Under the pieces are notes generated by a model. The model ran no database searches. It was given only the letters and a program-made list of their open reading frames with translations, and was not told the origin of the DNA. A stretch of 34,445 bases of DNA from Erythrobacteraceae bacterium (GTDB lineage: Bacteria; Pseudomonadota; Alphaproteobacteria; Sphingomonadales; Sphingomonadaceae). Positions 1,697 to 16,915 of the stretch are shown here, one piece after another. The translations under genes and the position numbers were made by a program. Numbering within the stretch: position 1 is the stretch's first letter; every line of letters begins with the position of its first letter. The stretch is taken from NCBI GenBank assembly GCA_024642545.1, contig JAHEAW010000013.1:1-34445 (forward strand). The letters are read 5' to 3'.

Positions 1697-2887
1697 TTAT
1701 GGTGCAGCGTTGGCTTGCTCGAGGCTGCTGAGGAAGCTTTGCGCCAGTGCGATAGCGGTAGCGCCTGTAGGGCCAGGGTCTGCGCGGTCAGAGACTTCGT
1801 AAGTATAGGCAGGAATGGCATAATGCTGGTGGAACCAGTTCTTCGCAGTGCCCGATCCTGGGTTGGCATTGCGCCGTTCAATCGTGAAGCTGTAACCAGG
1901 ATTGGTCTTTTCCTTGCCCGCCAGCCAAAGCTTCAGGAAACGCTGCTGGGCCGGGCTGGCCTCCTCCCCCTGAACATAAAAGAGGTTCTGCCGGGTCGAA
2001 TGAAAATCGATCATGGCTGCCAGCCTGATCGAGGGATCCAGCAGGTTGAGCCAATCGCGCACCGCCCTCGTCTCGGGCTGAGAAAATGCGCCCCAGTCGC
2101 GGTTGAGATCGATGCCGCCACGGTTGGTGCGCCAGTACCCCAGCGCTGCGCCGTCTGGGTTCAGCAGCGGTACCACCAGAACCTGATATTGCCGGGCAAG
2201 ACCCGGTTCCTGCTGTAGCTGGCTGGCAATCTCAGTTACGAAGGGTTCCATCGCATAAGCGCCGGTAACTTCCGGCGGGTGCTGCCGGCCAAGCAAGACA
2301 ATCAGCTTGGATGCATGCGGACTTCCCAGCCGGACTGCTTCGATTGTGCGGCCATCAAGCGAATGGCCCAAAACCACACGGCGTCCGTCAGCGGTTGAAA
2401 CAAGGCTGCTGAGCATTTTGCCATAATGGTCGGCACCGATGATTGGCTGCGCGCTGACCAGCCCACTTCCAGGATAAAGCTTGAAGCTGGCCCGCGCGCC
2501 ATCTCGGCCAAGAATGACCGGTAGCTCTCTTATTGCGCCGCCGCTTGCAAGTTTGGGCGCATAGCGGTGCTTTGCACCAAGATAATCGAGGTGGATATGC
2601 ACCGGACCGCTGCCTGTTGCGGTGAAGCGAAAGGCATACCACGGGCTGGGATTGATGGGCTGCGCGTGCTCGGGCGTGATCAGCAGAGAAAATTCGCGTG
2701 GCCCGTTGATCACGCAATGCGATTGGGGCGCACCGGCAAAGTCAAAGCTGATCGAAACCTGCGCGGTCGCACACGCTGGCGCCGTATCTGCTCTAACGAC
2801 TTTGGGCGGAGCCATGGTTGCACATGCCCCCGCCCCCAGTGCTGCTGCACAAGCGAGCCAGCGCAGCGCATGAAATGCACCGGTCAA
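1697..2887 (-). CDS. M14-type zinc carboxypeptidase, exported
   Basis: This 396-residue exported peptidase is predicted to remove C-terminal residues from peptides, or to cleave related amides, in the periplasm. The metallocarboxypeptidase signature is visible: the zinc ligands His203 and Glu206 in RQHPPEV, the third ligand His296 in IDFHSTRQ, substrate-binding Asn/Arg in GGIDLNRDW (about 258-265), and the catalytic Glu364 in TYEVSDR. An N-terminal beta-rich domain (about 40-150) precedes the catalytic domain, as in cytosolic-carboxypeptidase-like M14 proteins. The N-terminus is hydrophobic and ends in GAGAC (Cys22), which may be a lipobox. The only sensible start is TTG 2887, two bases after the receptor stop codon, so translation is probably coupled. 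It is the last gene of the dctA-esterase-receptor-peptidase operon. Confidence 0.85.
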   Translation of the reverse strand: MTGAFHALRWLACAAALGAGACATMAPPKVVRADTAPACATAQVSISFDFAGAPQSHCVINGPREFSLLITPEHAQPINPSPWYAFRFTATGSGPVHIHLDYLGAKHRYAPKLASGGAIRELPVILGRDGARASFKLYPGSGLVSAQPIIGADHYGKMLSSLVSTADGRRVVLGHSLDGRTIEAVRLGSPHASKLIVLLGRQHPPEVTGAYAMEPFVTEIASQLQQEPGLARQYQVLVVPLLNPDGAALGYWRTNRGGIDLNRDWGAFSQPETRAVRDWLNLLDPSIRLAAMIDFHSTRQNLFYVQGEEASPAQQRFLKLWLAGKEKTNPGYSFTIERRNANPGSGTAKNWFHQHYAIPAYTYEVSDRADPGPTGATAIALAQSFLSSLEQANAAP

Positions 2888-2889
2888 GC

Positions 2890-5800
2890 CTAGAACTTCT
2901 TGCGCAGTTCGATGTGAAACACCCGTCCCCGCGCGGTGTAAAGTTCGCTGAAGAAGCCGTAGTTCTCATCAGCCAGCGGGGGGTCCTTGTCGAACACATT
3001 ATTGATCGCAAAGCGCAGTCTGGTGCCATTGAGCGCTGTGTTATTCTTGATTGTGTAAGAGATTGAGAAGTTGACCGTGAATTGGTCGTGGACCGGATAA
3101 TAATTCGCGTTCGGATCGTCCGATACAATCAGTACGTCTCGGATCACGCTCGTGTCGTAAACCTTGCCGGTATACTGTCCGAACAGGCCGATATCTACCG
3201 GGCCACTACCCCAGTTGATCGCCCCGGTGGCGCGCCATTTTGGACGGCCTTCGATCTGAACCAGTTCGCCAAGGCCGCCAACAGTGACATCGAGCGGCAA
3301 GACCCCGGCTGCAATCGCGTCGAGAATCTCCTGCCCGTCGGGTCCGGCGGACTGCACGAAGCTGACAAGGCGCGCGGCATTCAGGCTGAGGCGGAATTTG
3401 CCTAGGCCGAAGTCAGGCACCTTGTAGAACAGGCCAAAGTCCCATCCTTTCGATACGCGACTGTCGAGATTGAGGTAAGGATCGAGGACCTGGACAATCT
3501 TCCCTGCCGGGGCGAGGCTGGTCCCGGTGAAGAGGGCAATGTCCTCAGCGGTCGGGTCAGCGCGGATGACGTTTGGGTTGGTGCTGCCATTGAGGCGGCG
3601 CAGCAAATCGAGCGCGATGGCGTTATCGTCACCGAAGGTCCCGACAAGGCCGGTCTGCTTTACGCGCCAGTAATCCGCCGTCAGTGTCAAACCCGGCAGG
3701 AACCTGGGCTCGAGTACCACGCCCAGATTGATGCTGGTGCTATCTTCCGGTTTCAATGTTCTTGCCCCCGAACGGTAGCTGATTGTGCCCGCACCGGTGC
3801 AACCGCCAAGGCTGGTGATCAGCCCTTTTTCCAGCTGTGCCTGGCAATTCACAAAGTCGTCGCGGGTGTTCGAGCGCGTCGTCCCTTCATCGTTTACCTG
3901 CACCAGATTTGGTGCGCGGAACCCGCGCGACCATGCCCCGCGCAGAGTAACGCCGTCCACTACCGACCACGACGCTGCGACGCGCGGCACGAAGGTGGTT
4001 GCGTCAATGTCGTTGAAGTGTTCCGTGCGGCCAGCGAGCTGAAGGTTCAGCTCGCGAATTAGCGGGATGTTCATGTCACGATTGACCAACGGCACAAACA
4101 GTTCGGCGAAAGCTGAATAGACGTCGCGGTGTCCGCTGGTGTCTGGCGAGGGGCTGGTCCCCGCCACGTCGCTGCCGTTGAAAACACCGGTGATGCTGTC
4201 AGTAAAGGTGATAGTCCCGTCGAGCCGCGGATCGCGGTCATCATAGAATGTCTCACGGCGCCATTCGACACCTGCGGCTATGCCCAGATCGCCGCCTGGC
4301 AGCGCGAACAGATCGGAGCGGCTGATCTTGAAGTCGCCCAGGGCCAGGCTGGTGCCGCCTTTGCGGTATACATCGATGCGGAATGGGTCGATTGATGCCT
4401 GCGGGTTGGGAGTGCAGTCGCCAATACCCGGATCGGAATCGACGCAACCGCCGTTGAACGGGTTATAGGCGTCTGGCGTCGTCAAATTGATCTGGTTCTG
4501 CATCTGCGTGAGCGACACGCGGTTTCTGGTAAGATCGTTCAGCTTGGCTTCGGAATAGACAAAGCCAGTGTCAAAATCCCACTTGCCAATATTTCCGCGC
4601 AGACCGGTGACAAAGCGATAAACATTCTTGTCGACCGATATGTCGCGGTTGCCAACGTCCACGAAACGGTAACGCTCCATGATGACATCCGCCCCGCCAT
4701 CGGCAATCGTGGTGCCGGGCAAGCGATTGGGGCTGCCGATCGGACCAAATGGGTTCCAGTAAGCGGTTTTCGAAATGCCCACCGGTACTGCACTCAGGAT
4801 CGCTGAGGCGTCCAGCGTACGGCGATTTTCCGAACGGTAGTAACTGCCTTCGAAGTAAGCTTCGACATTCTCGGTCAGATGGTAGCTAAGCAGCGCCATC
4901 GCGTTGTAGCGGTGCTTCTGGCTGATCAGGCTGTTCCCGAAGATCGTGTTGTAACGCACTGCTGTGGTGGGAGTGGTACCGTTGCGCGCGCACAGCCCAG
5001 CACCAAAGTCCAACCGGCAGCCTGGAAAGCTGCTTGGCTGGAGATAGAAATCATCATCGCGGATCGGGGTTTTGCTCGATGGTGATGGCCCCTGAATGTC
5101 AAACTGGCCGAATGGGCCAAAAGTGTTGCGGTTGTTGAACTGCGAATCCCCTTCGAAGTCGGTACCGACAACCAGCGGCAGTCTATTGTCATCCGCAGAA
5201 TAGGCGCGAGCGGCATTCGATAACCCGTTTTCATAATAGTAGCCGCCATAGACCGTCAGGTTGCCGCGGCCGCCGCCAAAGTCGAATCCAAGCCCGCCCG
5301 AAAGCCGGTAACTGTACAGGCTGGTGCCGTCTGATGCGCGCCAGTCGCCTTCAAGAAACCCGCCGTTCATGTCGCCCTTGAGCACGGTGTTGATGACGCC
5401 CGCGACTGCATCTGCGCCATAGATTGCCGATGCACCGTCTCGCAGGACTTCGATCCGCTTTACGCTGCCCGGGGCAATTTCATTGGTATCGGAGCTAACC
5501 ACGGGCACCAGCAGTTCGGTCTGGAAGCCGGGGTGAAGTGTCATACGGCGGCCGTTGATCAGCAGCAAGGTGTTGCCAGTGCCGAGATCGCGCAAATTGA
5601 TCGACCCGACATCGCCGCGCGCATTGTTCACTGTGTCGGAGTTCTGTTCGTTGAACGCGACCGAACCCGCTTGCGGGATCGACCGGAACAGCTCGTCACC
5701 AGATGATGCGCCGGTGTTTTCGATCGCCTGTTCGTCCAGTACTGTCACGGGCAGCACGTCATTGATCTTTGCGCCTTTGATCTGAGTGCCGGTAACGACA

Positions 5801-5931
5801 ATGATATTGTCTGCGGTTGTCTGCGATGCTGAGCTTGCGCTTTGCTGATCTTGCGCCTGCGCGGTGCCTGAAAAAGCCAACAGGCTGCCGCTCGCCAGTA
5901 AGGCGAATTTGCTTATGGTCCTGGTTCTCAT
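2890..5931 (-). CDS. TonB-dependent outer-membrane receptor
   Basis: This 1013-residue TonB-dependent receptor imports a ligand across the outer membrane using TonB energy. It has a signal peptide ending in AQA, then a TonB-box-like VTGTQI segment and a plug domain. The plug includes DVLPVTVLDEQAIENTGASSGDELFRSIP, split here as DVLPVTVLDEQAIEN and TGASSGDELFRSIP, and LLLINGRRM. It ends with a 22-strand-type barrel finishing in the aromatic residue of FHIELRKKF. AAGGGGA lies 6 nt before ATG 5931, which I prefer. An ATG at 5964, overlapping the esterase stop as ATGA, would add 11 residues in front of the signal peptide. The length and style match the large receptors of sphingomonads and Caulobacter. 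Its ligand is unknown, but the operon places it with an exported esterase, an exported peptidase and a dicarboxylate symporter. Confidence 0.93.
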   Translation of the reverse strand: MRTRTISKFALLASGSLLAFSGTAQAQDQQSASSASQTTADNIIVVTGTQIKGAKINDVLPVTVLDEQAIENTGASSGDELFRSIPQAGSVAFNEQNSDTVNNARGDVGSINLRDLGTGNTLLLINGRRMTLHPGFQTELLVPVVSSDTNEIAPGSVKRIEVLRDGASAIYGADAVAGVINTVLKGDMNGGFLEGDWRASDGTSLYSYRLSGGLGFDFGGGRGNLTVYGGYYYENGLSNAARAYSADDNRLPLVVGTDFEGDSQFNNRNTFGPFGQFDIQGPSPSSKTPIRDDDFYLQPSSFPGCRLDFGAGLCARNGTTPTTAVRYNTIFGNSLISQKHRYNAMALLSYHLTENVEAYFEGSYYRSENRRTLDASAILSAVPVGISKTAYWNPFGPIGSPNRLPGTTIADGGADVIMERYRFVDVGNRDISVDKNVYRFVTGLRGNIGKWDFDTGFVYSEAKLNDLTRNRVSLTQMQNQINLTTPDAYNPFNGGCVDSDPGIGDCTPNPQASIDPFRIDVYRKGGTSLALGDFKISRSDLFALPGGDLGIAAGVEWRRETFYDDRDPRLDGTITFTDSITGVFNGSDVAGTSPSPDTSGHRDVYSAFAELFVPLVNRDMNIPLIRELNLQLAGRTEHFNDIDATTFVPRVAASWSVVDGVTLRGAWSRGFRAPNLVQVNDEGTTRSNTRDDFVNCQAQLEKGLITSLGGCTGAGTISYRSGARTLKPEDSTSINLGVVLEPRFLPGLTLTADYWRVKQTGLVGTFGDDNAIALDLLRRLNGSTNPNVIRADPTAEDIALFTGTSLAPAGKIVQVLDPYLNLDSRVSKGWDFGLFYKVPDFGLGKFRLSLNAARLVSFVQSAGPDGQEILDAIAAGVLPLDVTVGGLGELVQIEGRPKWRATGAINWGSGPVDIGLFGQYTGKVYDTSVIRDVLIVSDDPNANYYPVHDQFTVNFSISYTIKNNTALNGTRLRFAINNVFDKDPPLADENYGFFSELYTARGRVFHIELRKKF

Positions 5932-5960
5932 GGGATCCCCTTTCCGGTTATTGTCCGTCT

Positions 5961-6902
5961 TCATGCAAAAGTTCGCCTGCTGATCCAGGCGTCAAAAATC
6001 TCTGGCCACTGGCCCAATATTTCTGCGCTGGTGCCGAGCCCCCAACCGTGGCCGCCGCTTTCGAAAATATGCAGTTCGGCAGGCACGTCGTTGGCGCGCA
6101 GCGCCTCGAACAAGGCGATATTATGGGCGGGCGGTGCGATGGGATCGTCAGCCGATGAGAACAGGATCATTGGCGGTGCGCCCGTGTGCGCTTGCGTATC
6201 CAGTGACCATGCGTCTTCCTGCGCGCGCGTCGGGTTGGTCCCGATCAGCTCGCGCCGGGTGCGGGTGGTATCCAATGGCTTACGCAGCGAGACGACGGGA
6301 AACAGCAGCGCTGCAAAATCGGGTCGGGCGCTTGCCTCGTCATATGTGTCACGACCTGCGTAGAATGCGTGATCCGGGCGCAGCGCGGTATAGCCTGCCA
6401 GATGCCCGCCAGCCGACATGCCCATAACCCCGATCCGGTCAGACTCGATGCCAAAGCCTGCAGCCCGACTGCGGATGATCTTCATCGCGCGCTGGGCATC
6501 CATGAACGGGGCGGCCGGTTCCCAGCCATCGTTGGGCAGCCGGTAAATGAGTTCAAAAACGGTGTAGCCCCTCAACTGCAGCCACTGCGCGGCAGGGGTG
6601 CTCTCCTTCCACAGCTGGATCCGGTAATATCCGCCGCCGCCGCATACCATCACTGCCCTGCCATTGGAGAGATTGGGGCGATAGACTCGCAAACGCGGCG
6701 TACTGATGTTGGAAACAGCGCCATACCCCTTGCCCGGACCACCAATTTTCTCAGGGCCGGTCGGGCCGCCGGTGCCGGGGGGCTTGCCTGGCCACAGCAG
6801 AATTTCCTCGCATGGGCAGGCCACAAGTGGATGCGCCTGAACCAGCGCCAGCGCGCTGGCTGCGCTTGTGGCACCGCGCAGGAAGGAGCGGCGCGCCAGC
6901 AT
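5961..6902 (-). CDS. Tat-exported alpha/beta-hydrolase, acetyl-xylan-esterase/BD-FAE-like
   Basis: This 313-residue serine hydrolase is predicted to cleave carboxylic esters in the periplasm. The N-terminus carries a twin-arginine motif, ARRSFLRG (Arg4-Arg5), followed by a hydrophobic stretch. The catalytic machinery is visible: oxyanion-hole segment VCGGGGYYR (about 87-94), nucleophile Ser163 in GMSAGGH, acid Asp252 or Asp253 in SSADDPIAP, and His285 in GGHGWG. The opening EILLWPGKPPG is typical of esterases of the acetyl-xylan-esterase/BD-FAE group. ATG 6902 shares its A with the TGA stop of dctA (TGATG), a strong sign of coupled translation. The first ORF codon at 6905 is TTG and is less likely. 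Its true substrate is unknown; its place between dctA and the receptor suggests it processes the imported ligand. Confidence 0.88.
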   Translation of the reverse strand: MLARRSFLRGATSAASALALVQAHPLVACPCEEILLWPGKPPGTGGPTGPEKIGGPGKGYGAVSNISTPRLRVYRPNLSNGRAVMVCGGGGYYRIQLWKESTPAAQWLQLRGYTVFELIYRLPNDGWEPAAPFMDAQRAMKIIRSRAAGFGIESDRIGVMGMSAGGHLAGYTALRPDHAFYAGRDTYDEASARPDFAALLFPVVSLRKPLDTTRTRRELIGTNPTRAQEDAWSLDTQAHTGAPPMILFSSADDPIAPPAHNIALFEALRANDVPAELHIFESGGHGWGLGTSAEILGQWPEIFDAWISRRTFA

Positions 6903-8284
6903 CAATTGCCCCCCGCTGTATCGGCCAGCATATCGCTATGCGGACCGCTGCGTTCGTGCCGTTCAATATCTTCTTCGGGCAAGGCCATTGGCGTGCCGCC
7001 CAGCGCCGCGCGGAGCCTTTCCTGATCGAGTGCACCTTCCCATTTGGCGACCACGATTGTGGCAACCGCATTGCCGGTGAAATTGGTCAGCGCCCGGCAT
7101 TCGCTCATGAAGCGGTCAATCCCCAGGATCAGCGTCATCCCTGCAACTGGCACTGACGGCACGACTGAGAGCGTGGCAGCAAGAATCACGAAGCCTGCAC
7201 CGGTCACGCCAGCTGCGCCCTTCGAACTGACCATGGCAACCAGCACCAGCGTGAGTTGTTCGCTCAGGCTGAGATCAATCCCGACCGCTTGCGCAATAAA
7301 CAGGGCAGCAAGCGTCATATAGATGTTCGTGCCATCAAGGTTGAAGGAATAACCGGTTGGCACGACCAGCCCGACAACGGCCTTGCGGCAGCCGGCGATT
7401 TCCATCTTTTCCATCAGGCTGGGCAGGGCCGCTTCGGAGGAGGATGTGCCCAGCACCAGCAGCAGCTCCTCGCGCAGATATCTGATCAGTGCCAAGATTG
7501 AAAAACCTGCCAGACGTGCCACTGTCCCCAGAACAAGGATCACAAACAGCAGCGACGTGAGGTAAAAGGTGCCAACCAGTGCTGCCAAACTGGCAAGCGA
7601 ACCAATGCCATATTCGCCAATCGTAAAGGCAATCGCCCCAAACGCGCCGATCGGAGCCAGTTTCATCAGCAGATGGACAATCTTGAACACAACTTCGCTG
7701 AGCGACCCCAGCACATCAAGCACCAGGTCGCTGTGCGGACGGGTAGTTGCCAATGCAAAGCCGGCCAGGACTGCGACCAGCAGCACTTGCAGGATCTTCC
7801 CATCAGTCAGCGCGCTCAATAAGGTGGTTGGAATAATGTCGAGTATGAAACCGGTGATGGACTGGTGCTCCGCTGCAATGGCGTAGCTGGCCACCGCGTT
7901 GGCATCGAGTTTTGCCGGATCGATGTGCAGTCCGGCACCGGGTTTGACCAGATTGGCAATGATCAGCCCGACAATCAGCGCAAAGGTTGAAAGGCAGAAG
8001 AAATAGATCAGCGCCTTGGCAGCCACGCTGCCAACCTTGTTCATATCGCGCATTCCGGCAATGCCGGTGGCAACGGTCAGGAAGATGACCGGAGCGATGA
8101 TCATTTTGACCAGAGCGATGAAACCATCACCAAGTGGCTTCAGCGATGCCCCGAAGCCGGGCGAGAGATGCCCGATCAGCGCACCCAGGACAATGGCGGC
8201 AAGGACCTGCACGTAAAGCAGCCGGTAAAACGGCTGCTTGCCGGACGAGCCGATCTGCGCCTGGTTGGCATTAATCCCCGACAT
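6902..8284 (-). CDS. dctA: DctA-type dicarboxylate/cation symporter
   Basis: This 460-residue inner-membrane protein of the dicarboxylate/amino acid:cation symporter family (DAACS) imports C4-dicarboxylates or acidic amino acids with protons or sodium. The sequence runs through the expected hydrophobic helices. Diagnostic segments include [18 protein letters not shown], the serine-rich hairpin loop [16 protein letters not shown], the helix-7 segment [16 protein letters not shown], the second hairpin [20 protein letters not shown], and the [20 protein letters not shown] motif of the substrate site. These features are conserved in DctA and GltP. ATG 8284 follows a G-rich Shine-Dalgarno sequence. 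It is first in a four-gene operon and divergent from dctB-dctD, the arrangement known for rhizobial dctA, which supports DctA over GltP. The exact substrate cannot be fixed from sequence. Confidence 0.92.
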
Positions 8285-8377
8285 TCATCCCCCCCAACCC
8301 ACTTCTTGCAGGTATGATGAGGCAGATTAGCGCAGGTTCTAGAGCGAAGATTGCAAAAACTGATATTTTAGAAAGCT

Positions 8378-8383
8378 CTTATA
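8378..8383 (-). promoter_or_regulatory. Candidate -10 element of the dctA operon
   Basis: TATAAG on the minus strand (five of six matches to TATAAT) lies about 95 nt before the dctA start. The -35 position (GCGAGT at 8401-8406) is poor, as expected for an activator-dependent promoter. The inverted repeat at 8415-8434 would then be centred near -53 of the predicted transcription start. Inference only. Confidence 0.35.
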
Positions 8384-8385
8384 AT
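8380..8385 (+). promoter_or_regulatory. Candidate -10 element of dctBD
   Basis: A perfect TATAAT lies on the plus strand 88 nt before the dctB start and overlaps the minus-strand -10 candidate. No good -35 box sits at 16-18 bp. Transcription from here would pass through both inverted repeats before dctB. Confidence 0.35.
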
Positions 8386-8414
8386 CAGATGTTTGGAGAG
8401 ACTCGCGGACTATT

Positions 8415-8434
8415 TTGGCTGAAAAACCGCACAT
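8415..8434. promoter_or_regulatory. Imperfect inverted repeat, candidate DctD site 2
   Basis: This 20-bp segment aligns with the stronger repeat at 8447-8466: it shares the TTG start, the GAAA centre and the right arm with GCACA, while its left arm is degenerate. Its centre is 32 bp, about three helical turns, from the other centre, so two bound dimers would lie on the same face of the DNA. It lies between the dctA and dctB promoter candidates. Confidence 0.4.
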
Positions 8435-8446
8435 TATTTTTGACAA

Positions 8447-8466
8447 TTGTGCGAAATTCGGCACAA
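8447..8466. promoter_or_regulatory. Inverted repeat, candidate DctD site 1
   Basis: The arms TTGTGC and GCACAA are perfect inverted copies around GAAATTCG, with a palindromic AATT centre. The repeat ends 7 bp before the dctB ATG, so a bound protein would cover the dctB ribosome-binding region of the DNA. From memory, rhizobial DctD sites are also GTGCG/CGCAC inverted repeats with an A/T centre; this resemblance needs checking. Confidence 0.5.
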
Positions 8467-8473
8467 AAAGGTA

Positions 8474-10159
8474 ATGCCCAGGGAAAATACCATATCCAGT
8501 GCACGCCTGAAGCTTGCCTTGGCTGTGCTGACATATGCAGTTGCAATTGGGCTGGCCCTATGGGTGGTTGACACAAGCGTACGCGGCGCTGCGCGCAAAT
8601 CAGCCTCCGCTGCAGCGCGCGATGATGCCGCGATCATGGCCACCGGGCTGAAAAGCGAGCTCGACAAGTTTAGTCTTGTCCCGCTGGTGCTGGCCCAGGA
8701 TCCTCAGGTTCAGGCTGCCTTGTCGGGTAGGGCAGGCGACATACGTGATCTCGACCGCCGGTTGGAAACGCTCGCGCGTCAGACTGATGCCTCGGCGATC
8801 TATCTGATGAACGCCAAGGGGGACACGCTCGCCGCCAGCAACTGGCAGTTGGAAACCAGTTTCGTCGGCTCCAATTACAGCTTCCGGCGCTATTTCAAGG
8901 CAGCTCTGGTCACCGGCACATCGACCCAGTTCGCCTTGGGCACAGTGAGCCGCAAGCCAGGGCTGTATATTGCGCACCGTGTAATGGCCGGCGGGCGACC
9001 GGCTGGAATAGTTGCGGTCAAGGTCGAATTTGACGCGCTTGAAGCGCATTGGCGCTCTGCCAGCGACGGGGTCTTCGTAACCGACAGGAACGGGGTGGTC
9101 CTGCTCACCAGCAACAGCGCCTGGCGTTTTCATGTGGCGAAAGGCTCAGCCGCTGCCCAGCGCGATCCAACGCTCGACCGACAACAATTCGGCGCCGATC
9201 GGCTGCCGCCGCTTGAATTGGGCCTTACTGGCAGCAGCGACCGTCTGGTGGAAGCGCCGCTACTTGATACACAGCAGCCGATCCCGCTTGATGGCTGGGT
9301 GTTGCACTTGCTGGTCGATCCGTCTTCGCAGATTAGTGCATCGGTCGCCAATGCGCGTTTTTATTCGCTGCTTGCGCTGGCCCTGCTAGCAGCCCTGATC
9401 GGTACTGCTGTGTTTTTACGTCGCCGCCGAAAGGTGCAAGCTGAGCAGGTTCTTGCGCGCCGTACGCAAACCTTGCGGGACCAATTGCATCAGGCCAATC
9501 GGCTGGCAACGCTGGGTCAGGTATCCGCCGGGGTGGGGCATGAAATAAGCCAACCAGTCGCTGCAGCGCGCCTGTTTGCAGAAAATGGTGAGGCCTTGCT
9601 GGCGGCGGGGAAGCTGGATGATGCCCGCACCAATTTTGACCGGATCGTGGGTTTGATGGACAAGATCGGCAAGATCACAGCAGAACTTCGGCGCTTCAGC
9701 CGCCGCGATGCACCTGAACCTGAAGAAATGCCGCTTGCCACCGCAATAGACGGTGCTGTGCTTTTGCTCCGCGACCGAATGAGAAGTATGGATGTTACCG
9801 TCACTACGCCTTCTGCTGAACAGGCGGCGATCAGGGTCCGCGCCGAGCCTGTTCGGCTGGAGCAGGTTTTGGTCAACTTGCTGCAGAATGCGCTCGATGC
9901 CTCGGATCGTAATGGCCGGCTGGATATCGCGCTTGCCGCAGACGCTGGCCGGTGTTTTCTAACCGTCAGTGATAGCGGGCCGGGGATCAATCCCGATGTT
10001 GCCGAACGACTGTTCCAGCCCTTTGCCACCACCAAAGCCGACGGTCTTGGTCTTGGGCTGGTTATCTCGCGGGATATCATGCGAGATCTGGGCGGCGATC
10101 TGACCGTTCAACCAAGGCAATCGGGCGCACAATTCGTCATGGAAATTCCTCGCGCATGA
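8474..10159 (+). CDS. dctB: DctB-type sensor histidine kinase
   Basis: This 561-residue membrane sensor kinase pairs with the following DctD. It has an N-terminal transmembrane helix (about 10-35), a periplasmic double-Cache-type ligand domain (about 40-285) with the FRRYFKAAL and GTVSRKPGLYIAHRV segments typical of DctB, and a second transmembrane helix near 295-315. A short coiled segment leads to the dimerisation helix with phospho-accepting His356 in GHEISQPVAA. The ATPase domain shows the N-box LVNLLQNALDAS, G1 box DSGPGI and G2 box GLGLGLVIS. I choose ATG 8474 over TTG 8447, because TTG 8447 falls inside the inverted repeat and adds an unneeded leader; AAGG lies close upstream. It overlaps dctD by ATGA. 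The Cache domain should sense dicarboxylates, probably with DctA. Confidence 0.9.
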   Translation: MPRENTISSARLKLALAVLTYAVAIGLALWVVDTSVRGAARKSASAAARDDAAIMATGLKSELDKFSLVPLVLAQDPQVQAALSGRAGDIRDLDRRLETLARQTDASAIYLMNAKGDTLAASNWQLETSFVGSNYSFRRYFKAALVTGTSTQFALGTVSRKPGLYIAHRVMAGGRPAGIVAVKVEFDALEAHWRSASDGVFVTDRNGVVLLTSNSAWRFHVAKGSAAAQRDPTLDRQQFGADRLPPLELGLTGSSDRLVEAPLLDTQQPIPLDGWVLHLLVDPSSQISASVANARFYSLLALALLAALIGTAVFLRRRRKVQAEQVLARRTQTLRDQLHQANRLATLGQVSAGVGHEISQPVAAARLFAENGEALLAAGKLDDARTNFDRIVGLMDKIGKITAELRRFSRRDAPEPEEMPLATAIDGAVLLLRDRMRSMDVTVTTPSAEQAAIRVRAEPVRLEQVLVNLLQNALDASDRNGRLDIALAADAGRCFLTVSDSGPGINPDVAERLFQPFATTKADGLGLGLVISRDIMRDLGGDLTVQPRQSGAQFVMEIPRA

Positions 10160-11511
10160 CAGCAGACCGGCCCCTCAACGTAATCTTTGTCGAAGATGAC
10201 GATTTGCTGCGCCAAGCCATGATCCAGGGGCTGGAGCTGGAAGGCGCTTGCGTTGGGGCCTTCGACCGCGCTGCGCCGGCACTGCGCCAACTATCGCCTG
10301 ACTATAGCGGCGTGATTGTGAGTGATATTCGCTTGCCAGGAATGGATGGGCTCGAATTCTTCGGTGCGCTGCGCGCTATCGATGACACTTTGCCGGTCAT
10401 CTTCACTACCGGCCATGGCGATGTTGCGATGGCGGTGGAAGCCATGAAGAACGGGGCTGCGGATTTCCTGACCAAGCCCTATTCGCTCTCCGCTTTGCTC
10501 GACGCGATTCGCCGCAGCGCACAGACCAGAGAACTGGTTTTGGAAAACCGGAAATTGCGCGAAGCCTTGCGCAGCCGGGATGGGCCTGCGCTGCTTGGCA
10601 GTTCAGAAACGGTTCGGCGGCTCAGCCAGCTGGTCAAGGAAATCGCGCAGGCCGACGTCGACCTGCTGATCACAGGGGAGAGCGGAACTGGCAAAAGCTT
10701 TCTCGCGCGGCAAATCCATGACCTCAGCCGCCGCAGCGAGCGGCCATTTGTTACCATCGATGCTGGAAGCTGGGCCCATCAGGACGCAGAGCTGATTATT
10801 TTTGGCCGCGATCCTGGTAGCGGGCTGTCGCGTGCCGGACTGATCGAACGGGCCGCAGGCGGGACGCTGTTCCTCGATGATATAGAGACGATGCCGGAAC
10901 AGTTCCAGGCCCGCATGCTGAGCGTGGTCGAGCAGCGGGCGTATCAGCCGCTAGGAGCGGAGCGGCCGCGCCCGGCCAATATCCGGATCATCTCAGCTGC
11001 CCGAAACCAGCCGCTGGCAGATGCCTTGCATTCCCGCGCTGCTCAGCCGCTGTTTCACCGCCTTAACAGCGTCAATGTCGCGCTGCCGACGCTCAGATCG
11101 CACCGCGAGGATATCCCTGAAATCTTCCGCTATTTTGTGGCCCGCTTCGAGCAGGAATTTCAAAAGTCTGCCCGCTCCATCAGCGAAGCCCAATGGCACT
11201 ATCTGATCAATCACGCTTGGGAAGGTAACTTGCACGAACTGCGCAGCTTTGCCCGCAACTTCACACTTGAACTGGCCGGCAACATGCCCGGACAGATGGC
11301 AGGAAAGGCAGCTGCCGACACATTAAAGCACCGTGTTGCCGGTTTTGAACGCACAGTGATCGAAGACGCGCTGCGCCAATTCAAGGGCAAGATACCGGCA
11401 GTGGCGCGCTTCCTCGGCACACCGCGAAAAACGCTTTACGACAAGCTTGCCCGGCACAGTCTTGATCCGGATAATTTCCGGGAGCCTGCACGCTCTGCAG
11501 AACGCGATTGA
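10156..11511 (+). CDS. dctD: DctD-type response regulator lacking the GAFTGA loop
   Basis: This 451-residue response regulator has the NtrC/DctD domain order. The receiver domain (1-120) carries phospho-acceptor Asp57 (VSDIRLPGMDG), Thr84/Thr85 and Lys107 (TKPYS). The AAA+ domain has Walker A GESGTGKS at 174-181, Walker B GGTLFLDD at 235-242 and the arginine-finger region FHRLN near 300-304. A Fis-type helix-turn-helix lies near 395-440 (VARFLGTPRKTLYDKL). The odd point is residues 217-228: where sigma-54 activators have GAFTGA, this protein has GRDPGSGLSRAG. Without that loop it should not remodel sigma-54 holoenzyme, so it may act on sigma-70 promoters, as described for Rhodobacter capsulatus NtrC. 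ATG 10156 overlaps the dctB stop by four bases. It probably controls the divergent dctA operon. Confidence 0.9.
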   Translation: MTADRPLNVIFVEDDDLLRQAMIQGLELEGACVGAFDRAAPALRQLSPDYSGVIVSDIRLPGMDGLEFFGALRAIDDTLPVIFTTGHGDVAMAVEAMKNGAADFLTKPYSLSALLDAIRRSAQTRELVLENRKLREALRSRDGPALLGSSETVRRLSQLVKEIAQADVDLLITGESGTGKSFLARQIHDLSRRSERPFVTIDAGSWAHQDAELIIFGRDPGSGLSRAGLIERAAGGTLFLDDIETMPEQFQARMLSVVEQRAYQPLGAERPRPANIRIISAARNQPLADALHSRAAQPLFHRLNSVNVALPTLRSHREDIPEIFRYFVARFEQEFQKSARSISEAQWHYLINHAWEGNLHELRSFARNFTLELAGNMPGQMAGKAAADTLKHRVAGFERTVIEDALRQFKGKIPAVARFLGTPRKTLYDKLARHSLDPDNFREPARSAERD

Positions 11512-11647
11512 CCAGATGCAGAAATTCCAATCCATCCGCGAATTCGTATTCCCTTTGGATTTTTCGGCCAATATGCCACAAGCTGGACAAAAGAATGAAC
11601 GTTCACATGCCCGTTTGTGTGGACCTGGTCTGGGGAGAGAATAGACA

Positions 11648-12940
11648 ATGGCACTGGTACCTGATCTTGCATCGAGCACCGATTCCGAAACGATTGAAGA
11701 TGACGGCCAGCATATCAATGCGCCGGGCCTGCAGTTTTTCGTGTTCGGCCTGTTCTTCATTTTTGGCGGGATCACTTCGCTTAACGATGTCATTATTCCC
11801 AAGCTGAAAGAGCTGTTCACGCTCAATTATACGCAGGCCATGCTGGTGCAGTTCTGTTTCTTCGCCGCATACGCGCTGATCGGTATTCCTGGTGCGCAGC
11901 TGGTCAAGAAGATCGGCTATATGCGCGGCGCAGTCGCGGGGCTGCTGACCATGATGGTTGGCTGCCTGCTGTTCATTCCGGCGAGCGAGACAGCGACTTA
12001 CGGCCTGTTCCTGCTCGCCCTGTTTGTGCTCGCCAGCGGAATCGTGGTGGTGCAAGTGGTGGCCAATCCGCTGATCAGCCTGCTTGGCCCGGCCAAGACC
12101 ACGCACAGCCGCCTGACCTTTGCGCAAGCGTTCAATTCTTTCGGTACGACCATTTTCCCGCCCATCGGCGCCATCCTGATTTTAGGCAGCCTGACCAAGG
12201 TCGCTGCCGATACTTTGTCCGGCGTTGAACTGGATGCTTATCGCACAGCGGAAAGCCAGGCGATTGTGCATGGCTATATCGGACTGGCGGTTGCGCTGGC
12301 GATTGTCGCCTTTGCGGTGTGGATGTTCCGCAACCGGCTGCAGGGTGAAAAGCATGAAGCGAGTAGTGTTCTGGCAGGCTTTTCCTTGCTGCGGCGGCCA
12401 CGCTTCGGGTACGGCGCGCTGTGCATTTTCCTGTATGTTGGTGCGGAAGTCTCGATTGGCTCGCTGATCGTCAATTATCTGATGCAGTCGCATGTACTGG
12501 GGCTGCAGGAACAAGCGGCTGGTAAATTGATCGGCCTGTATTGGGGCGGCGCAATGGTGGGCCGGTTCATTGGTTCAGCAGTGCTGCGCTATGTCAGCCC
12601 GGGTCTGGTGCTGAGCAGTGTGACTGCAGGGGCGATCACGCTGATTGCAATTTCAGCCAACACCACGGGCGAAGTTGCCGGATACAGCCTGCTGGCAATT
12701 GGCCTGATGAATTCGATCATGTTCCCCACCATTTTTTCGCTTGCGTGCGAAAAGCTGGGTTCGAGCGCCGCAGATGGCTCAGGCATCATCAATGTCGCGA
12801 TTTGCGGCGGGGCGATTATTCCGCTGGCGACAGGTGCATTGGCGGATGCCAGCGGCAGCCTGTCGCTCGCACTGACCTTGCCGGCGATCTGCTATGCAAT
12901 CATCGGCGGTTTCGGCATCTTCGCCAGAAAACCTGCCTGA
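11648..12940 (+). CDS. FHS-family sugar MFS transporter (FucP/GluP-like)
   Basis: This 430-residue major facilitator protein has about 12 hydrophobic helices and is predicted to import a sugar with protons. The first helix segment FFIFGGITSLNDVIIPKLK and the motif VVQVVANPLISLLGP, followed by LTFAQAFNSFGTTIFPPIGA, are characteristic of the fucose:H+ symporter (FHS) family, which includes L-fucose and glucose/galactose permeases. The central loop (about 195-235) and the second-half helices with YVGAEVSIGSLIVNYL fit as well. ATG 11648 follows GGGGAGAG at good spacing. It lies 136 bp after dctD on the same strand and has its own leader, so it may be separately transcribed. No sugar-catabolic gene sits beside it, so its substrate is open. 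Confidence 0.88.
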   Translation: MALVPDLASSTDSETIEDDGQHINAPGLQFFVFGLFFIFGGITSLNDVIIPKLKELFTLNYTQAMLVQFCFFAAYALIGIPGAQLVKKIGYMRGAVAGLLTMMVGCLLFIPASETATYGLFLLALFVLASGIVVVQVVANPLISLLGPAKTTHSRLTFAQAFNSFGTTIFPPIGAILILGSLTKVAADTLSGVELDAYRTAESQAIVHGYIGLAVALAIVAFAVWMFRNRLQGEKHEASSVLAGFSLLRRPRFGYGALCIFLYVGAEVSIGSLIVNYLMQSHVLGLQEQAAGKLIGLYWGGAMVGRFIGSAVLRYVSPGLVLSSVTAGAITLIAISANTTGEVAGYSLLAIGLMNSIMFPTIFSLACEKLGSSAADGSGIINVAICGGAIIPLATGALADASGSLSLALTLPAICYAIIGGFGIFARKPA

Positions 12941-13028
12941 TGCTGATGTAGCTACCCAAAGTGTGAATTGCACAGCGCCGGATGCTCTCTAGGAAAAACC
13001 GCCAAGTCATTCCAACGGGAGAAGTCCG

Positions 13029-14039
13029 ATCGCTATTCATAATCGCAAGGCCGTCATTCATCAGCGCCCGTCCGGTATGCCCACCGATGCTGATTTTGCG
13101 ATTCTTGACGAGGACCTGCCGGCGCCCGCAGTTGGTCAGGTTATCGCCAAGGTCGATACATTGTCAGTTGATGCTTGGATTCGCACGACGCTGAGCGATG
13201 CAGGGATGCATACGACAGAGCCGCTGGGGTCAACTATTCGGGCCTTTGGCGTGGGTCAGGTGATCGAAAGTGCCAGTGAGAAGCTGGCCGTGGGCGACTG
13301 GGTTTATGGCCAGCTCAAGGCCCAGACTTTCGCGCTGGCGGCAGATGAAGAATTGACCAAGGTCGAGCCGGAAGAGGGTATCGAACCCTCGGCCTTTGTG
13401 GGCGCGCTGGGTATTACCACCGGTCTCACTGCCTGGGTCGGGCTGATCGCCGTGGGCGAAGTACAGAAGGGGGATGTGGTGGTGGTTTCAGGTGCTGCCG
13501 GGGCGGTTGGGTCCTGCGTGGTGCAGCTGGCCAAGGCGCGCGGAGCCTATGTCATCGGGATTGCGGGCGGGCCACATAAATGCTCTTATCTGATCGACGA
13601 ACTGGGGGCCGATGCCGCGATTGATTACAAGCAGGGCGGCGTCAAGGAACAGCTTGCCAAGGCAGCGCCCAACGGAATCGATGTATTCTTTGACAATGTC
13701 GGGGGAGACATCCTCGACAGCGTGCTCGACAATCTGCGCCCCACGGGCGGAGCGCGGGTGGTCATCTGCGGAGCGATTTCACAGTACCAGCACCTCGATG
13801 ATGTGCAGGGCCCCAAACTTTATCTGCGGCTCGCAGAGCGCAACGCATCGATGCGTGGTTTTGTGGTAAGCCATCATGCCAATCGCTGGCCTGAGGCGAG
13901 CAGCGAAATTTCACAATTGCTCCGATCAGGCGCGATGAAACTGCCAGAACATGTCGTCTCGACAGTCGATCAGTTTCCTGAAGCCTTGATGATGCTGTTC
14001 AACGGTAAGCATATCGGCAATCTGGTGGTGAAACCGTAA
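13029..14039 (+). CDS. Zinc-free MDR reductase (PTGR/CurA type), non-canonical start
   Basis: This protein of about 336 residues belongs to the zinc-independent medium-chain reductases that reduce activated C=C bonds with NADPH (prostaglandin/curcumin/2-alkenal reductase group). The nucleotide motif is VSGAAGAVGS, followed by GIAGGPHKC and VFFDNVGGDILD; catalytic-zinc ligands are absent. The first ATG is 13077, but the conserved N-terminal strand lies upstream in frame: NRKAVIHQRPSGMPTDADF aligns with the N-termini of the MDR genes at 31268 and 17999. The frame is open back to a TAG at 12990 and contains no ATG, GTG, TTG or CTG before 13077. GGGAG at 13017-13021 sits 7 nt before ATC 13029, which gives a 336-residue protein like its paralogues; ATT 13035 is the alternative. 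If neither is used, the protein starts truncated at 13077. Confidence 0.8.
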   Translation: MAIHNRKAVIHQRPSGMPTDADFAILDEDLPAPAVGQVIAKVDTLSVDAWIRTTLSDAGMHTTEPLGSTIRAFGVGQVIESASEKLAVGDWVYGQLKAQTFALAADEELTKVEPEEGIEPSAFVGALGITTGLTAWVGLIAVGEVQKGDVVVVSGAAGAVGSCVVQLAKARGAYVIGIAGGPHKCSYLIDELGADAAIDYKQGGVKEQLAKAAPNGIDVFFDNVGGDILDSVLDNLRPTGGARVVICGAISQYQHLDDVQGPKLYLRLAERNASMRGFVVSHHANRWPEASSEISQLLRSGAMKLPEHVVSTVDQFPEALMMLFNGKHIGNLVVKP

Positions 14040-14052
14040 GCACATCGATGCC

Positions 14053-14823
14053 TCAGAGAGCCTGTCCATCATCGATGGTGATGGTCGATCCGGTGACGTG
14101 GCGGGAAGCTTCGGAACACAGATAGAGAATGATGTCGTCCAGCGCATCGATCTCCAAAAGCCTTTGGCGATGCCAACTTGAAATCTGTGCCTTGCCACCG
14201 TCAGTATCGAACCAGTCGCCATTGATCTCGGTCCGGATATAGCCGGGCTGGACTGTGTTGACATTGATCCCCTTGCGGACCCATTCGCGGGCGAACTGCC
14301 TGCCCAGATGAGCGACCGCAGCCTTGCTTGCGGCATAGGCGGCATCGCCTTGGCCGGTCATTTCGGCAGTGATCGATCCGATCAGGACCACGCGCCCGTT
14401 TTCCTGGGCCGCGGACCCAGTTTCGATCAGCCGCCGGGCACCCTCCCGTACAGTCAGATAGAGACCCGTCAAATTAGTATCGATCACGCTGCGGATCAGC
14501 CGATGTGACACATCGGCCGAACGGCCACCGGTTGCCAGCCCGGCATTGGCAATGATCGTATCAACCGTTCCAAACTCTGCTTCTGCTGCGTCATAGGCGG
14601 CGGCGATTGACGCTTCATCGGTAACATCAAGCGGCACAGGCAGAGCCTTTCCCCCGGTGGCCCGGATCGCGTTCGCCAGCTTCTCCACCCGGTCCATGCG
14701 GCGGGCGCCCAGCACCATACACCCGCCGGCAGCGGCAAGGGTAGTGGCAAGGTGGGCGCCAATTCCGGAGGATGCACCGCTCAACAGGATTGTGCGGTCG
14801 GCTAGAGAGAATGGTTTGGTCAT
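14053..14823 (-). CDS. SDR-family oxidoreductase
   Basis: This 256-residue classical short-chain dehydrogenase/reductase is predicted to interconvert an alcohol and a ketone with NAD(P). The cofactor motif is GASSGIG at residues 16-22, followed by DV (66-67), NAG (93-95), the structural Asn117, catalytic Ser150 (IGSITA), Tyr163 and Lys167 (YAASK). The Arg-Arg pair after the second strand (GARRMDR) suggests NADP(H) preference. ATG 14823 has AAGG 8 nt upstream. It converges on the MDR gene at 13029-14039 with a 13-bp gap and diverges from mobA. Substrate unknown; the island context suggests a ring or side-chain hydroxyl of the compound being degraded. Confidence 0.88.
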   Translation of the reverse strand: MTKPFSLADRTILLSGASSGIGAHLATTLAAAGGCMVLGARRMDRVEKLANAIRATGGKALPVPLDVTDEASIAAAYDAAEAEFGTVDTIIANAGLATGGRSADVSHRLIRSVIDTNLTGLYLTVREGARRLIETGSAAQENGRVVLIGSITAEMTGQGDAAYAASKAAVAHLGRQFAREWVRKGINVNTVQPGYIRTEINGDWFDTDGGKAQISSWHRQRLLEIDALDDIILYLCSEASRHVTGSTITIDDGQAL

Positions 14824-14954
14824 GAAATACCTTGCGCGTCTGGGTGTGTGGGCCTTTCCAACTGCAAAGCAGGTTTAGGGTCGATTGGCAAAACCGCTAA
14901 CCGCTCGGAGCGCAGCTGATTGAATAGCGCCGATAGCACGCCTATCCTGGATCA

Positions 14955-15539
14955 ATGACCAAGCTGAAAAACAATCTGCAAGGTAATATTCTGGGCGTGG
15001 TACTGGCAGGCGGAAATTCGCGCCGGTTCGGCAGCGACAAGGCGCTGGCAAAGCTGGGTGATCAGACATTGATGGAACGCGCTATCGCCGCGCTTGGCCG
15101 CTATTGCGGCAAAGTTATCGTGGTTGGACGGGAAAGCGCTCCTGTCCAAACGATTGGCGACTGGCCGCGACCGGGATGCGGACCATTGGGCGGCCTGGCA
15201 GCGGCGCTGCGCCACGGCGCGGGCGCGGGCTTTACCAGTGTGCTGAGCTGCGGGGTGGATACAGTTGAACTGCCCGGCGATTGCCTGAATCTGCTCTGTC
15301 CCGCCCCTGCCTTTCTGGAAAGCCAGCCGGTTATTGGCCACTGGCCAGTCGCAGCCGCCAGCCAGATTGAAGCAATCTTGCTGGGGGGCGGCAAGCATTC
15401 GGTGTGGCGCTTTGCTACCGAGATTGGCGCGTGCGCAGTGCACTGCGAGACCCCGCCCAGCAACATAAACCATCCGGAAGATCTGGCTGCCTTGCACCTT
15501 GGCAAGGGCGCGCTAATCCGCCCAGCTAGACAAAAATGA
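14955..15539 (+). CDS. mobA: Molybdenum cofactor guanylyltransferase MobA
   Basis: This 194-residue protein matches MobA, which joins GMP to molybdopterin to make the guanine dinucleotide form of the cofactor for DMSO-reductase-family enzymes. The N-terminal signature LAGGNSRRFGSDKAL (residues 17-31) contains the nucleotide-binding LAGG-x-S-x-R-x-G-x-DK motif. Further features are GCGPLGGLAAAL and CGVDTVELPGDCL, in place of the usual C-D-x-P metal-binding region. The C-terminal INHPEDLA matches the N-x-x-T/E-D-L ending of the family. No strong Shine-Dalgarno precedes ATG 14955. It stands alone, divergent from an SDR and upstream of the Rieske gene. The obvious client in this window is the molybdopterin oxidoreductase at 29107-31230. 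Confidence 0.85.
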   Translation: MTKLKNNLQGNILGVVLAGGNSRRFGSDKALAKLGDQTLMERAIAALGRYCGKVIVVGRESAPVQTIGDWPRPGCGPLGGLAAALRHGAGAGFTSVLSCGVDTVELPGDCLNLLCPAPAFLESQPVIGHWPVAAASQIEAILLGGGKHSVWRFATEIGACAVHCETPPSNINHPEDLAALHLGKGALIRPARQK

Positions 15540-15637
15540 CAATTGCGGCAGGTAGCGATTGGCACGATGTAAGGACATCTTGGCAGGATTTGCCGATGCT
15601 CGGTGCCCACAGACCTGTCTGAACCAGAGGATACATC

Positions 15638-16864
15638 ATGTCGCGCGACCAGCTTCTCGAAATGACCCGTTCGCTCATTGAACATGGTCGTGCAAATACA
15701 ATGGAACTGGCCGAGGCAGTGGTCAGCATTCCGGCTTCAAGCTATACCGATCCAGATCTTTACGAGCTTGAAAAAGAAAAGATTTTCAAGCGTCTTCCGC
15801 TCATGCTGGCCCCATCCTGCGAATTGCCAGAGCCTGGTTCCTACAAGGCGATGGATGTCGCTGGGGTGCCTGTATTGCTGACCCGCCAAAAGGATGGCAG
15901 CGTGGCGGCCTTTCTCAACATGTGTACGCACCGGGGCAATCCGGTGGCGCAAGGTCACGGCACGGCATCGCGCTTCATGTGCGGGTATCATGGGTGGACT
16001 TTCAAGAGTGACGGCAGCCTGATGGGTGTCGCATCGCCGGGCGATTTTGGCGCGATCGACAAGGCCGCGCACTGCCTGAAACGGTTTCCCTCGCTCGAGC
16101 GGGCCGGGTTGATCTGGGTGACGCTGGATCTCAATTCCAGGCTCGATATTGCCGATTATCTATGCGGCTATGATGCCTTGCTCGAACATTTTGGATTCAA
16201 GGACTGGTATTTGTTCGACAGTCGCCAGATCAAGGGGCCGAACTGGAAGACAGCCTATGATGGCTATCTTGATTTCTACCATTTGCCGGTGCTCCATGCG
16301 GCCACCTTTGGGCCGGATTTCTTCAATCGGGCCAACTATTTCAGCTGGGGGCCGCACCAGCGACTTGGCTCGCCATCGACTACTGCGCAGAAGACCGGCA
16401 GCGACGAAGTGGTCGATCTTGCGTCAATGCCGGAAGCGGACTGGCCGATCGATGCATTGTTGCAGGGCGTGTGGACAATCTATCCGCATATTTCAATTGC
16501 CAGCTTCTATGGCGGCGGGGGCCGCGGCGCGCTGATTTCGCAGCTTTTGCCGGGCGAAACAGTTGGCGAAAGTGTGACCACGCAGTTCTATGTGATGGAA
16601 TTTGAACCGACCGACGATGCAGTTCGTCAGGGCGCGCGCGAGCAGTTCGACTTTCTCAAAGTGGTGGTCGAACAGGAAGATTACACCACGGGAAAGCGGC
16701 AGCATGAGGCGCTGCAATCGGGCATGATGGATTCCGTGCTGTTTGGCCGGAATGAAGGCGGCGGCCAAGTGTTCCACCAGTGGACACGCCGACTGGTGGA
16801 AGCCAGCGATGATGAACTGCTCGATATTTTCGCCCGGCAGAGTATCGCCGAAGCTGCCGAATAG
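15638..16864 (+). CDS. Rieske non-heme iron oxygenase, alpha subunit
   Basis: This 408-residue catalytic subunit of a Rieske-type ring-hydroxylating or demethylating oxygenase uses electrons to activate O2 at a mononuclear iron. The Rieske cluster ligands are Cys96-x-His98 (NMCTHRGN) and Cys115-x2-His118 (MCGYHGWTF). The mononuclear iron motif is Asp212-x2-His215-x4-His220 in YLDFYHLPVLH, with the bridging Asp at the correct spacing. The third iron ligand is probably an acidic residue in the EQEDY segment near residue 346. ATG 15638 follows GAGG. No beta subunit, ferredoxin or reductase gene is adjacent, so the protein probably works as a homo-oligomer with partners encoded elsewhere. A strong hairpin follows the stop codon. 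Substrate unknown. Confidence 0.92.
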   Translation: MSRDQLLEMTRSLIEHGRANTMELAEAVVSIPASSYTDPDLYELEKEKIFKRLPLMLAPSCELPEPGSYKAMDVAGVPVLLTRQKDGSVAAFLNMCTHRGNPVAQGHGTASRFMCGYHGWTFKSDGSLMGVASPGDFGAIDKAAHCLKRFPSLERAGLIWVTLDLNSRLDIADYLCGYDALLEHFGFKDWYLFDSRQIKGPNWKTAYDGYLDFYHLPVLHAATFGPDFFNRANYFSWGPHQRLGSPSTTAQKTGSDEVVDLASMPEADWPIDALLQGVWTIYPHISIASFYGGGGRGALISQLLPGETVGESVTTQFYVMEFEPTDDAVRQGAREQFDFLKVVVEQEDYTTGKRQHEALQSGMMDSVLFGRNEGGGQVFHQWTRRLVEASDDELLDIFARQSIAEAAE

Positions 16865-16900
16865 CAGGCGCCGCCGCGCCATTTTGACGGCGCGCCTGCT
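16863..16900. terminator. Bidirectional hairpin between convergent genes
   Basis: The arms AGCAGGCGC (16863-16871) and GCGCCTGCT (16892-16900) pair perfectly over nine bases, with more GC pairing possible inside. The hairpin overlaps the Rieske stop codon and lies between it and the end of the convergent NmrA-like gene, so it could serve both. The T-runs are weak. Confidence 0.6.
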
Positions 16901-16915
16901 GTTGTGCATACGCCC

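Follow-up and report, generated by a model that had tools for sequence, protein, structure and literature searches.

What might join a C4-dicarboxylate transporter, an exported esterase-like hydrolase, a TonB-dependent receptor and an exported carboxypeptidase into one system? Genes for these four proteins stand in a row in the window studied here, a 34,445-nucleotide stretch of an Erythrobacteraceae bacterium genome (assembly GCA_024642545.1, contig JAHEAW010000013.1, positions 1 to 34,445 of the forward strand), next to genes for the sensor kinase DctB and the response regulator DctD. A preliminary description of the window proposed a single route in which the receptor imports an acidic ester or peptide, hydrolysis follows in the periplasm, and the released dicarboxylate or acidic amino acid is taken up by DctA. 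On balance our analysis favors, with reasonable confidence, a system under DctBD control that takes up an acidic substrate, probably an aspartyl one, and digests it in the periplasm, the released unit entering through DctA. The features concerned are as follows, with “EST” as a working name for the exported serine hydrolase encoded downstream of dctA.

6902–8284, minus strand: dctA, C4-dicarboxylate:cation symporter of the SDF family (NF002461, 653.5 bits against a cut-off of 513).
5961–6905, minus strand: EST, exported serine α/β hydrolase with a two-arginine (RR, Tat-like) signal, BD-FAE/PaeX-like (Ser164-Asp254-His286).
2890–5964, minus strand: TonB-dependent receptor (Plug and TonB_dep_Rec_b-barrel over the Pfam cut-offs; probable start ATG 5931).
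1697–2887, minus strand: M14 zinc carboxypeptidase with an export signal (Peptidase_M14, 79.6 bits against 21.6; HxxE...H zinc site, Glu364, Lys349).
8447–10159, plus strand: dctB, sensor kinase (dCache, HisKA and HATPase domains; ATG 8474 is the likelier start).
10156–11511, plus strand: dctD-like response regulator (receiver, AAA+ and Fis helix-turn-helix domains; without the GAFTGA loop).
8447–8466, no strand: 20-bp palindrome TTGTGC-N8-GCACAA, first of a pair and probable (predicted) DctD operator.
8415–8434, no strand: second, degenerate copy of the palindrome (differing from the consensus at 6 positions; the starts of the two copies are 32 bp apart).

Profile models confirm the four minus-strand genes in the places and families first given to them (NF002461 for DctA, BD-FAE/Abhydrolase_3 for EST, and the TonB receptor and Peptidase_M14 models), and the N-terminal RR signal of EST agrees with the predicted Tat export. 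The junctions are also as described: the stop of dctA and the start of EST overlap as TGATG, 2 bp separate the receptor from M14, and EST and the receptor either overlap as ATGA (receptor start 5964) or lie 29 bp apart (ATG 5931). We favor the start at 5931, which is preceded by a purine-rich stretch, because it coincides with residue 12 of the longer reading, where many of the matches to orthologues start. From position 8447 onward, dctBD runs divergently from the dctA-EST-receptor-M14 operon. The source genome has one DctA match only (E ≤ 1e-60), and the receptor scores 27.6 bits against the SusC-type model TIGR04056 (cut-off 368.25).

Whether this order is more than local was addressed by searching genome contigs with EST. 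The search returned 70 loci (numbered L below), 49 of them close (L034–L081 and L083; Sphingomonadales/Alphaproteobacteria, best-segment identity 62 to 73%). dctA lies directly upstream of EST in 49/49; the receptor follows EST in 48, the exception (L077) being a contig that ends in EST; and M14 follows the receptor in 42, with contig ends accounting for three of the seven exceptions (L040, L071 and L077). Across 50 regions (the window and the 49 close loci) the median dctA-EST gap is −4 bp. The dctA stop shares bases with an ATG in 38 of them (35 ATGA, 3 TGATG or TAATG); by eye, the overlap is GTGA in 10 others and TTGA in 1, and in the last (L074) the dctA frame is broken. With the window counted, M14 is present in 41 of the 45 regions with at least 1.5 kb downstream, and divergent DctBD in 37 of the 42 with at least 4 kb upstream. 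The families widely shared around the 49 loci are the operon four and dctBD only; PahZ1 (6 and 4 loci) ranks next, along with open reading frames (ORFs) that are antisense or scattered. No operon partner was found at the other 21 loci (≤40% identity, other phyla included), where there is one generic DctD-domain match (L091) and L098–L103 have no match at the threshold.

A survey of 199 genomes of the family, the source genome included, gives the same picture. Thirteen other genomes have an EST orthologue at 60% identity or more, with dctA and the receptor adjacent by position in all 13, and M14 relatives (E ≤ 1e-30) occur in 22, the source included, one in each. All 22 sit directly downstream of a receptor of the same family, two of these receptors (G020 and G173) being 34 to 36% identical. 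The order dctA-EST-receptor-M14 is strongly conserved. Gene order in relatives had been set beforehand as a check on the single-route reading, which survives it: dctA precedes EST in every close locus, a receptor stands next to every M14 relative in the family genomes, and the stop/start overlap is almost universal. The same observations bear on the idea that dctBD-dctA is a normal Dct system merely housed together with independent cargo genes that share no route. DctA relatives are indeed found in 106 of the 199 genomes, mostly without an EST orthologue and M14, but the overlap and order kept over many genera, the invariable receptor-M14 linkage, and the recurrence of dctA-receptor pairs with three different hydrolase sets make such co-housing most improbable.

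We infer the following route, including its direction and its substrate. The four minus-strand genes would be co-transcribed as a single operon for nutrient use under the control of DctBD. An acidic oligomer or polymer would cross the outer membrane through the TonB-dependent receptor; in the periplasm, EST may cut it internally or remove ester- or amide-linked groups, and M14 would trim acidic residues from its end. DctA would then import the freed C4 unit, most likely aspartate and possibly malate. DctB presumably senses C4-dicarboxylate, and DctD, acting at the paired palindromes between dctB and dctA, would activate the operon via a non-sigma-54 promoter. Besides the conserved order, two independent lines lend comparative support to the single route first suggested: homologues of the poly(aspartic acid) hydrolases PahZ1 and PahZ2 in sister operons, and an invariant basic residue of M14.

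That residue is Lys349. The predicted structure of M14 (predicted local distance difference test [pLDDT], 78.7) is nearest to bacterial carboxypeptidases resembling the cytosolic carboxypeptidases (CCPs; 4b6z, E 2.0e-21), with the deglutamylase CCP5 next in similarity. In an alignment of 55 rows (the window and 54 matches; L046/L151 and L051/L152 are the same contigs), His203, Glu206, Arg253, Asn262, Arg263, His296 and Glu364 are invariant; we take them to be the zinc ligands, the substrate-carboxylate residues and, for Glu364, the general base. Lys349 is present in 55/55 rows, down to 32% identity. It was placed at position 255 of carboxypeptidase A (CPA) by its spacing of 15 residues before Glu364, the distance that separates Ile255 from Glu270 in the bovine enzyme. 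In a profile alignment the Pseudomonas and Shewanella relatives 4a37 and 3l2n have Cys there. Residue 255 lies at the base of the pocket and sets specificity, and Arg255 is reported to give carboxypeptidase O (CPO) its acidic specificity (PMC9925722). Because an invariant Lys occupies this position, M14 is predicted to release C-terminal acidic residues. Searches of the PDB with the M14 and receptor sequences returned no relative with a telling substrate. By eye, many but not all orthologues of M14 carry a Cys in the export signal at a position resembling a lipobox.

EST was compared in the same way. Its predicted structure (pLDDT 81.7) is nearest to acetyl-xylan-esterase-type enzymes; Ser164, Asp254 and His286 are invariant in orthologues, as is the two-arginine signal in all 31 rows that reach the signal region. 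Arg73 and Arg215 are present in 48/48 operon-type rows, in 1 and 0, respectively, of 16 related esterases from other genomes (38 to 43% identity; position 215 is Gly in 15 of them), and in none of 10 remote ones, a pattern that fits an acidic substrate without proving it. Arg208 (46/48 operon-type rows and 0/16 related esterases) was dropped as a mark of the operon type, as 5 of the 10 remote relatives have it too. A lipoprotein assignment for EST was rejected, the signal Cys of the window copy not being kept in orthologues.

Its fold raises the prospect of a quite different diet, plant cell-wall glycans, with EST deacetylating pectin or xylan, the receptor importing oligosaccharides, and a GluP-type major facilitator superfamily (MFS) transporter encoded downstream of dctD (11648–12940) importing sugars. 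The best NCBIfam matches of EST are PaeX and AxeA1, and its PDB neighbors are acetyl-ester and xylan esterases. Both matches nevertheless fall below the curated cut-offs (PaeX, 209.7 against 550 bits; AxeA1, 137.2 against 700 bits), the MFS gene is no neighbor in the 49 loci (one 60% homologue is found in L190), none of the 13 recurring neighbor families listed looks glycan-type by eye, and dctA, dctBD and M14 would be left unexplained. A carbohydrate role was therefore rejected as first choice for EST on its scores and neighbors, and we hold the glycan diet as a whole to be highly unlikely.

Sister operons point instead to aspartate chains. In seven Sphingorhabdus-type loci (L046–L051 and L078), a PahZ1 homologue gene follows M14 within ~75 bp; the L078 copy matches PDB 6ve6 with E 4.1e-63. 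In four of these (L046, L048, L050 and L051) the PahZ1 frame runs on into a PahZ2 homologue as one fused ORF, located at 6328–8469 in L046. The second domain of the L046 copy matches the poly(aspartic acid) hydrolase of PDB 7ljh (E 1.4e-85), and those of L048, L050 and L051 are 94 to 96% identical to it; in L049 just a portion of the PahZ2 part was found, and in L047 and L078 PahZ1 stands without it. A PahZ1 homologue of 40 to 50% identity comes after dctD in five loci of Erythrobacter type (L058, L059, L066, L069 and L074), split into two pieces in L074. In four family genomes (L134, L135, L143 and L145) the arrangement is receptor-M14-PahZ1 without EST; dctA (63 to 64%) comes first in L135 and L145, with dctBD divergent in L145. 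The receptor-M14 cluster of L136 also includes PahZ1, at its far end. Altogether, PahZ1 stands beside M14 in 6 of the 14 family genomes that have it and in the same cluster in 1, and outside the family one of nine PahZ1 regions (L160) has receptor-M14, ~3.4 kb away. Because related operons carry homologues of both poly(aspartic acid)-digesting enzymes, feeding on acidic aspartate-like (or malate-like) chains is probable. Strict replacement of PahZ1 by EST was rejected, as 12 loci have both, and PahZ1 as the window's own enzyme was likewise set aside, the source genome having no homologue at E ≤ 1e-25.

Pedobacter PahZ1 is reported to cut β- and not α-amide bonds between Asp units and to be related to polyhydroxybutyrate (PHB) depolymerases (PMC4456602). 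This preference bears on a further alternative, the general scavenging of acidic α-peptides from protein or cell wall, in which M14 would free C-terminal Asp/Glu, DctA would take the aspartate, and EST would have a side role. The acid-type pocket and CCP-like fold of M14 suit it, and M14 has a weak, sub-threshold match to the murein tripeptide amidase model (18.9 against 157 bits). Besides the β-bond preference of PahZ1, however, it leaves EST unexplained, an obligate partner with an esterase/S9-like fold whose gene overlaps dctA, and we consider it quite unlikely.

Several observations weigh against the favored route and its aspartyl substrate. In 7 of the 14 family genomes PahZ1 lies outside such a cluster, and a receptor-M14 match is missing in eight of the nine PahZ1 regions from outside the family. 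PahZ2 relatives occur in 33 of the 199 genomes, 31 of which have no EST orthologue. The source genome itself has neither a PahZ1 match (E ≤ 1e-25) nor a PahZ2 match (E ≤ 1e-30), so at these thresholds the PahZ evidence reaches the window by association only. M14 is absent from 4 of the 45 regions with room for it and adjacent DctBD from 5 of 42, and the nearest named relatives of EST are carbohydrate acetyl esterases.

Other sister operons vary the same theme. The receptor-M14 clusters of L075, L136, L139, L140, L141 and L190 add an amidohydrolase, which we label N-acyl-D-amino-acid deacylase type where the models give amidohydrolase only, and a D-amino-acid dehydrogenase whose model matches are below cut-off. 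A GltP-like transporter is found in four such clusters (L136, L140, L141 and L190), and a fumarase/adenylosuccinate-lyase-type enzyme with a DASS transporter in two (L136 and L139). The L136 cluster spans 5812–18084, and its fumarase/adenylosuccinate-lyase-type enzyme has a signal-like N terminus. The clusters of L136, L139, L140, L141 and L190 possibly encode a pathway for D-aspartyl or N-substituted aspartate compounds. In L178, L179 and L180, dctBD is divergent from dctA, which is followed by a receptor of 35 to 42% identity and an exported DUF4886/GDSL-like hydrolase (DUF4886 over cut-off in two of the three, GDSL weakly in two of the three); no M14 or EST match was found in these three loci. 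From these and the other dctA-receptor clusters, we conclude that some members of the family share a more general pairing of dctA with the receptor, around which the exported hydrolases vary. Nine receptor regions at 38 to 44% identity (L181–L189) have neither dctA nor M14, and a GltP-like gene lies in two.

Such hydrolases leave room for a malyl ester as substrate, either fungal poly(β-L-malate) or acyl-malates. EST would then be a depolymerase and L-malate both the DctA cargo and the DctB inducer, with M14 acting on an amide-linked part or end group. DctA and DctB are malate-type proteins, and β-poly(Asp) is the amide analogue of β-polymalate. EST belongs to an esterase family, the three dctBD-dctA-receptor operons just described end in DUF4886/GDSL-like hydrolases, PahZ1 resembles PHB depolymerases (PMC4456602), and bacteria growing on polymalate are known (PMC9210645). 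Against this, 41 of the 45 regions keep an M14 with an acid-type pocket, and the PahZ1, PahZ2, N-acyl-D-amino-acid-deacylase-like and D-amino-acid dehydrogenase genes of sister loci point to amino acids. The characterized bacterial polymalate hydrolase is, moreover, reportedly without serine-esterase activity (PMC9210645). A malyl substrate is accordingly rather unlikely in our estimate, and we retain the aspartyl one as the more probable.

How the operon might be controlled was approached through 43 dctA-dctB gaps, namely those of the window and of 42 loci with divergent dctB (L145 included). In 32 of the 43 gaps, the top-scoring site deviates from TTGTGCGGAWWTCCGCACAA at three positions or fewer; shuffles averaged 8.1 to 9.3 mismatches, with 5 as the lowest single value. 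In 35 of the 43, the best palindrome pair is spaced 32 bp, as in the window (9 mismatches in total for the pair there), and a few of the 35 pairs are weak (14 to 16 mismatches). A pair is found even in the distant L145 and in L178, and one good site in L179; L135 and L180 have no site, and L191 is masked there and uninformative. In the window, the palindrome at 8447–8466 overlaps the TTG-started reading of dctB. Within the source genome a zero-mismatch site occurs only at dctA-dctB, and sites with at most one mismatch number 6, against 5 for a control pattern, so no wider palindrome regulon can be claimed.

A strict −24/−12 promoter was found in none of the 43 gaps; the looser pattern TGG-N9-TGC occurs in seven, the window not among them, with a near match in L178. 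The GAFTGA loop is absent from the window DctD and from all 38 orthologue ORFs read past residue 300, and it is present in three of the four activators read among five others in the source genome, which also has rpoN. Most GAFTGA mutants are reported to be unable to activate (PMC7175178). Because both the loop and the strict promoter are missing, classical sigma-54 control was rejected, and DctD is probably a plain activator or repressor that acts together with a different sigma factor. The anticipated co-regulation under DctBD is supported by gene position and by the conserved palindrome pair as predicted operator, and would probably not act via sigma-54. The locus is a clear example of loss of the sigma-54 contact motif from a DctD that has nonetheless stayed beside dctA.

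More tentatively, these findings may belong to a widespread, DctBD-controlled, sigma-54-independent sphingomonad feeding system for natural β-aspartyl (isoaspartyl, partly D-aspartyl) polymers or peptides. We offer this as a possibility short of an even chance. Its core of receptor, dicarboxylate transporter and, usually, M14 would be fixed, and the front enzyme would vary, being EST in some operons and PahZ1, a fusion of PahZ1 with PahZ2, or a hydrolase of GDSL type in others. Poly(aspartic acid) has been suggested as a scale inhibitor and dispersant that is environmentally benign (PMC4456602); if the broader proposal is true, breakdown of the synthetic polymer by such bacteria would be a by-product of this natural pathway. 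The operon may supply a concrete genetic route for sphingomonad uptake and digestion of acidic polymers, covering entry through the outer membrane, passage across the inner membrane, and regulation, and Dct regulation would extend from small-dicarboxylate uptake to the digestion of dicarboxylate polymers.

A siderophore role for the receptor was rejected: matches to the FepA, CirA and BtuB models are far below cut-off, and no other family recurs widely beside the operon. Elsewhere in the window, the MFS gene at 11648–12940 (GluP type, 261.8 bits against a cut-off of 202.55) was rejected as part of the system, as it does not stand beside the operon in the 49 loci. Downstream of the operon lie two probably exported proteins without a Pfam match (794–1642 and 262–696), neither of which was found beside the operon in those loci. 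Further along, 13077–34445 is a dense catabolic run with four medium-chain reductase-like, two P450-like and one Rieske-like oxygenase ORFs, along with acyl-CoA-synthetase-like, short-chain-dehydrogenase/reductase (SDR)-like, SnoaL-like and molybdopterin oxidoreductase-like ones; these labels were given by eye, except for 31268–32278 and the MobA-like ORF at 14955–15539. It is possibly an island for the degradation of terpenoids or steroids.

Judged by titles and abstract openings, none of the open-licence PubMed Central (PMC) papers listed by our searches describes a dctA-EST-receptor-M14 operon. Nor do the titles or abstracts listed describe a receptor, DctA or DctBD together with PahZ genes. 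Taken singly, the parts belong to known kinds; what appears new is their combination, how widely it occurs and its link to PahZ.

Among known systems, the classical DctABD of rhizobia and other proteobacteria shares DctA with divergent DctB/DctD. Here, in contrast, dctA heads an operon for envelope proteins, GAFTGA is missing from DctD, and no strict −24/−12 promoter was found in the 43 gaps. EST has the fold and triad of the pectin and xylan acetyl esterases PaeX, AxeA1 and BTAxe1, from which it differs in scoring below the family cut-offs and in Arg73 and Arg215, specific to its orthologues. With the acid-specific metallocarboxypeptidases (CPO and the cytosolic CCPs), M14 shares the catalytic set, a basic residue at 255 as in CPO, and the CCP-like fold, whereas it is bacterial and exported and has Lys instead of Arg. 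The TonB-dependent nutrient loci known as CUT loci in Xanthomonas and polysaccharide utilization loci (PULs) in Bacteroidetes likewise place a receptor, exported hydrolases and a transporter of the inner membrane under the control of a single regulator; the present operon differs in its dicarboxylate transporter and acid-type peptidase, and in a SusC match far below cut-off. The PahZ1/PahZ2 system of Sphingomonas sp. KT-1 and Pedobacter sp. KP-2 has in common with it an exported serine α/β hydrolase and a metallo-exopeptidase, predicted in the window operon to act on acidic chains. The window operon has EST and M14 in place of the PahZ homologues, which in turn occur within sister operons that share its receptor and M14.

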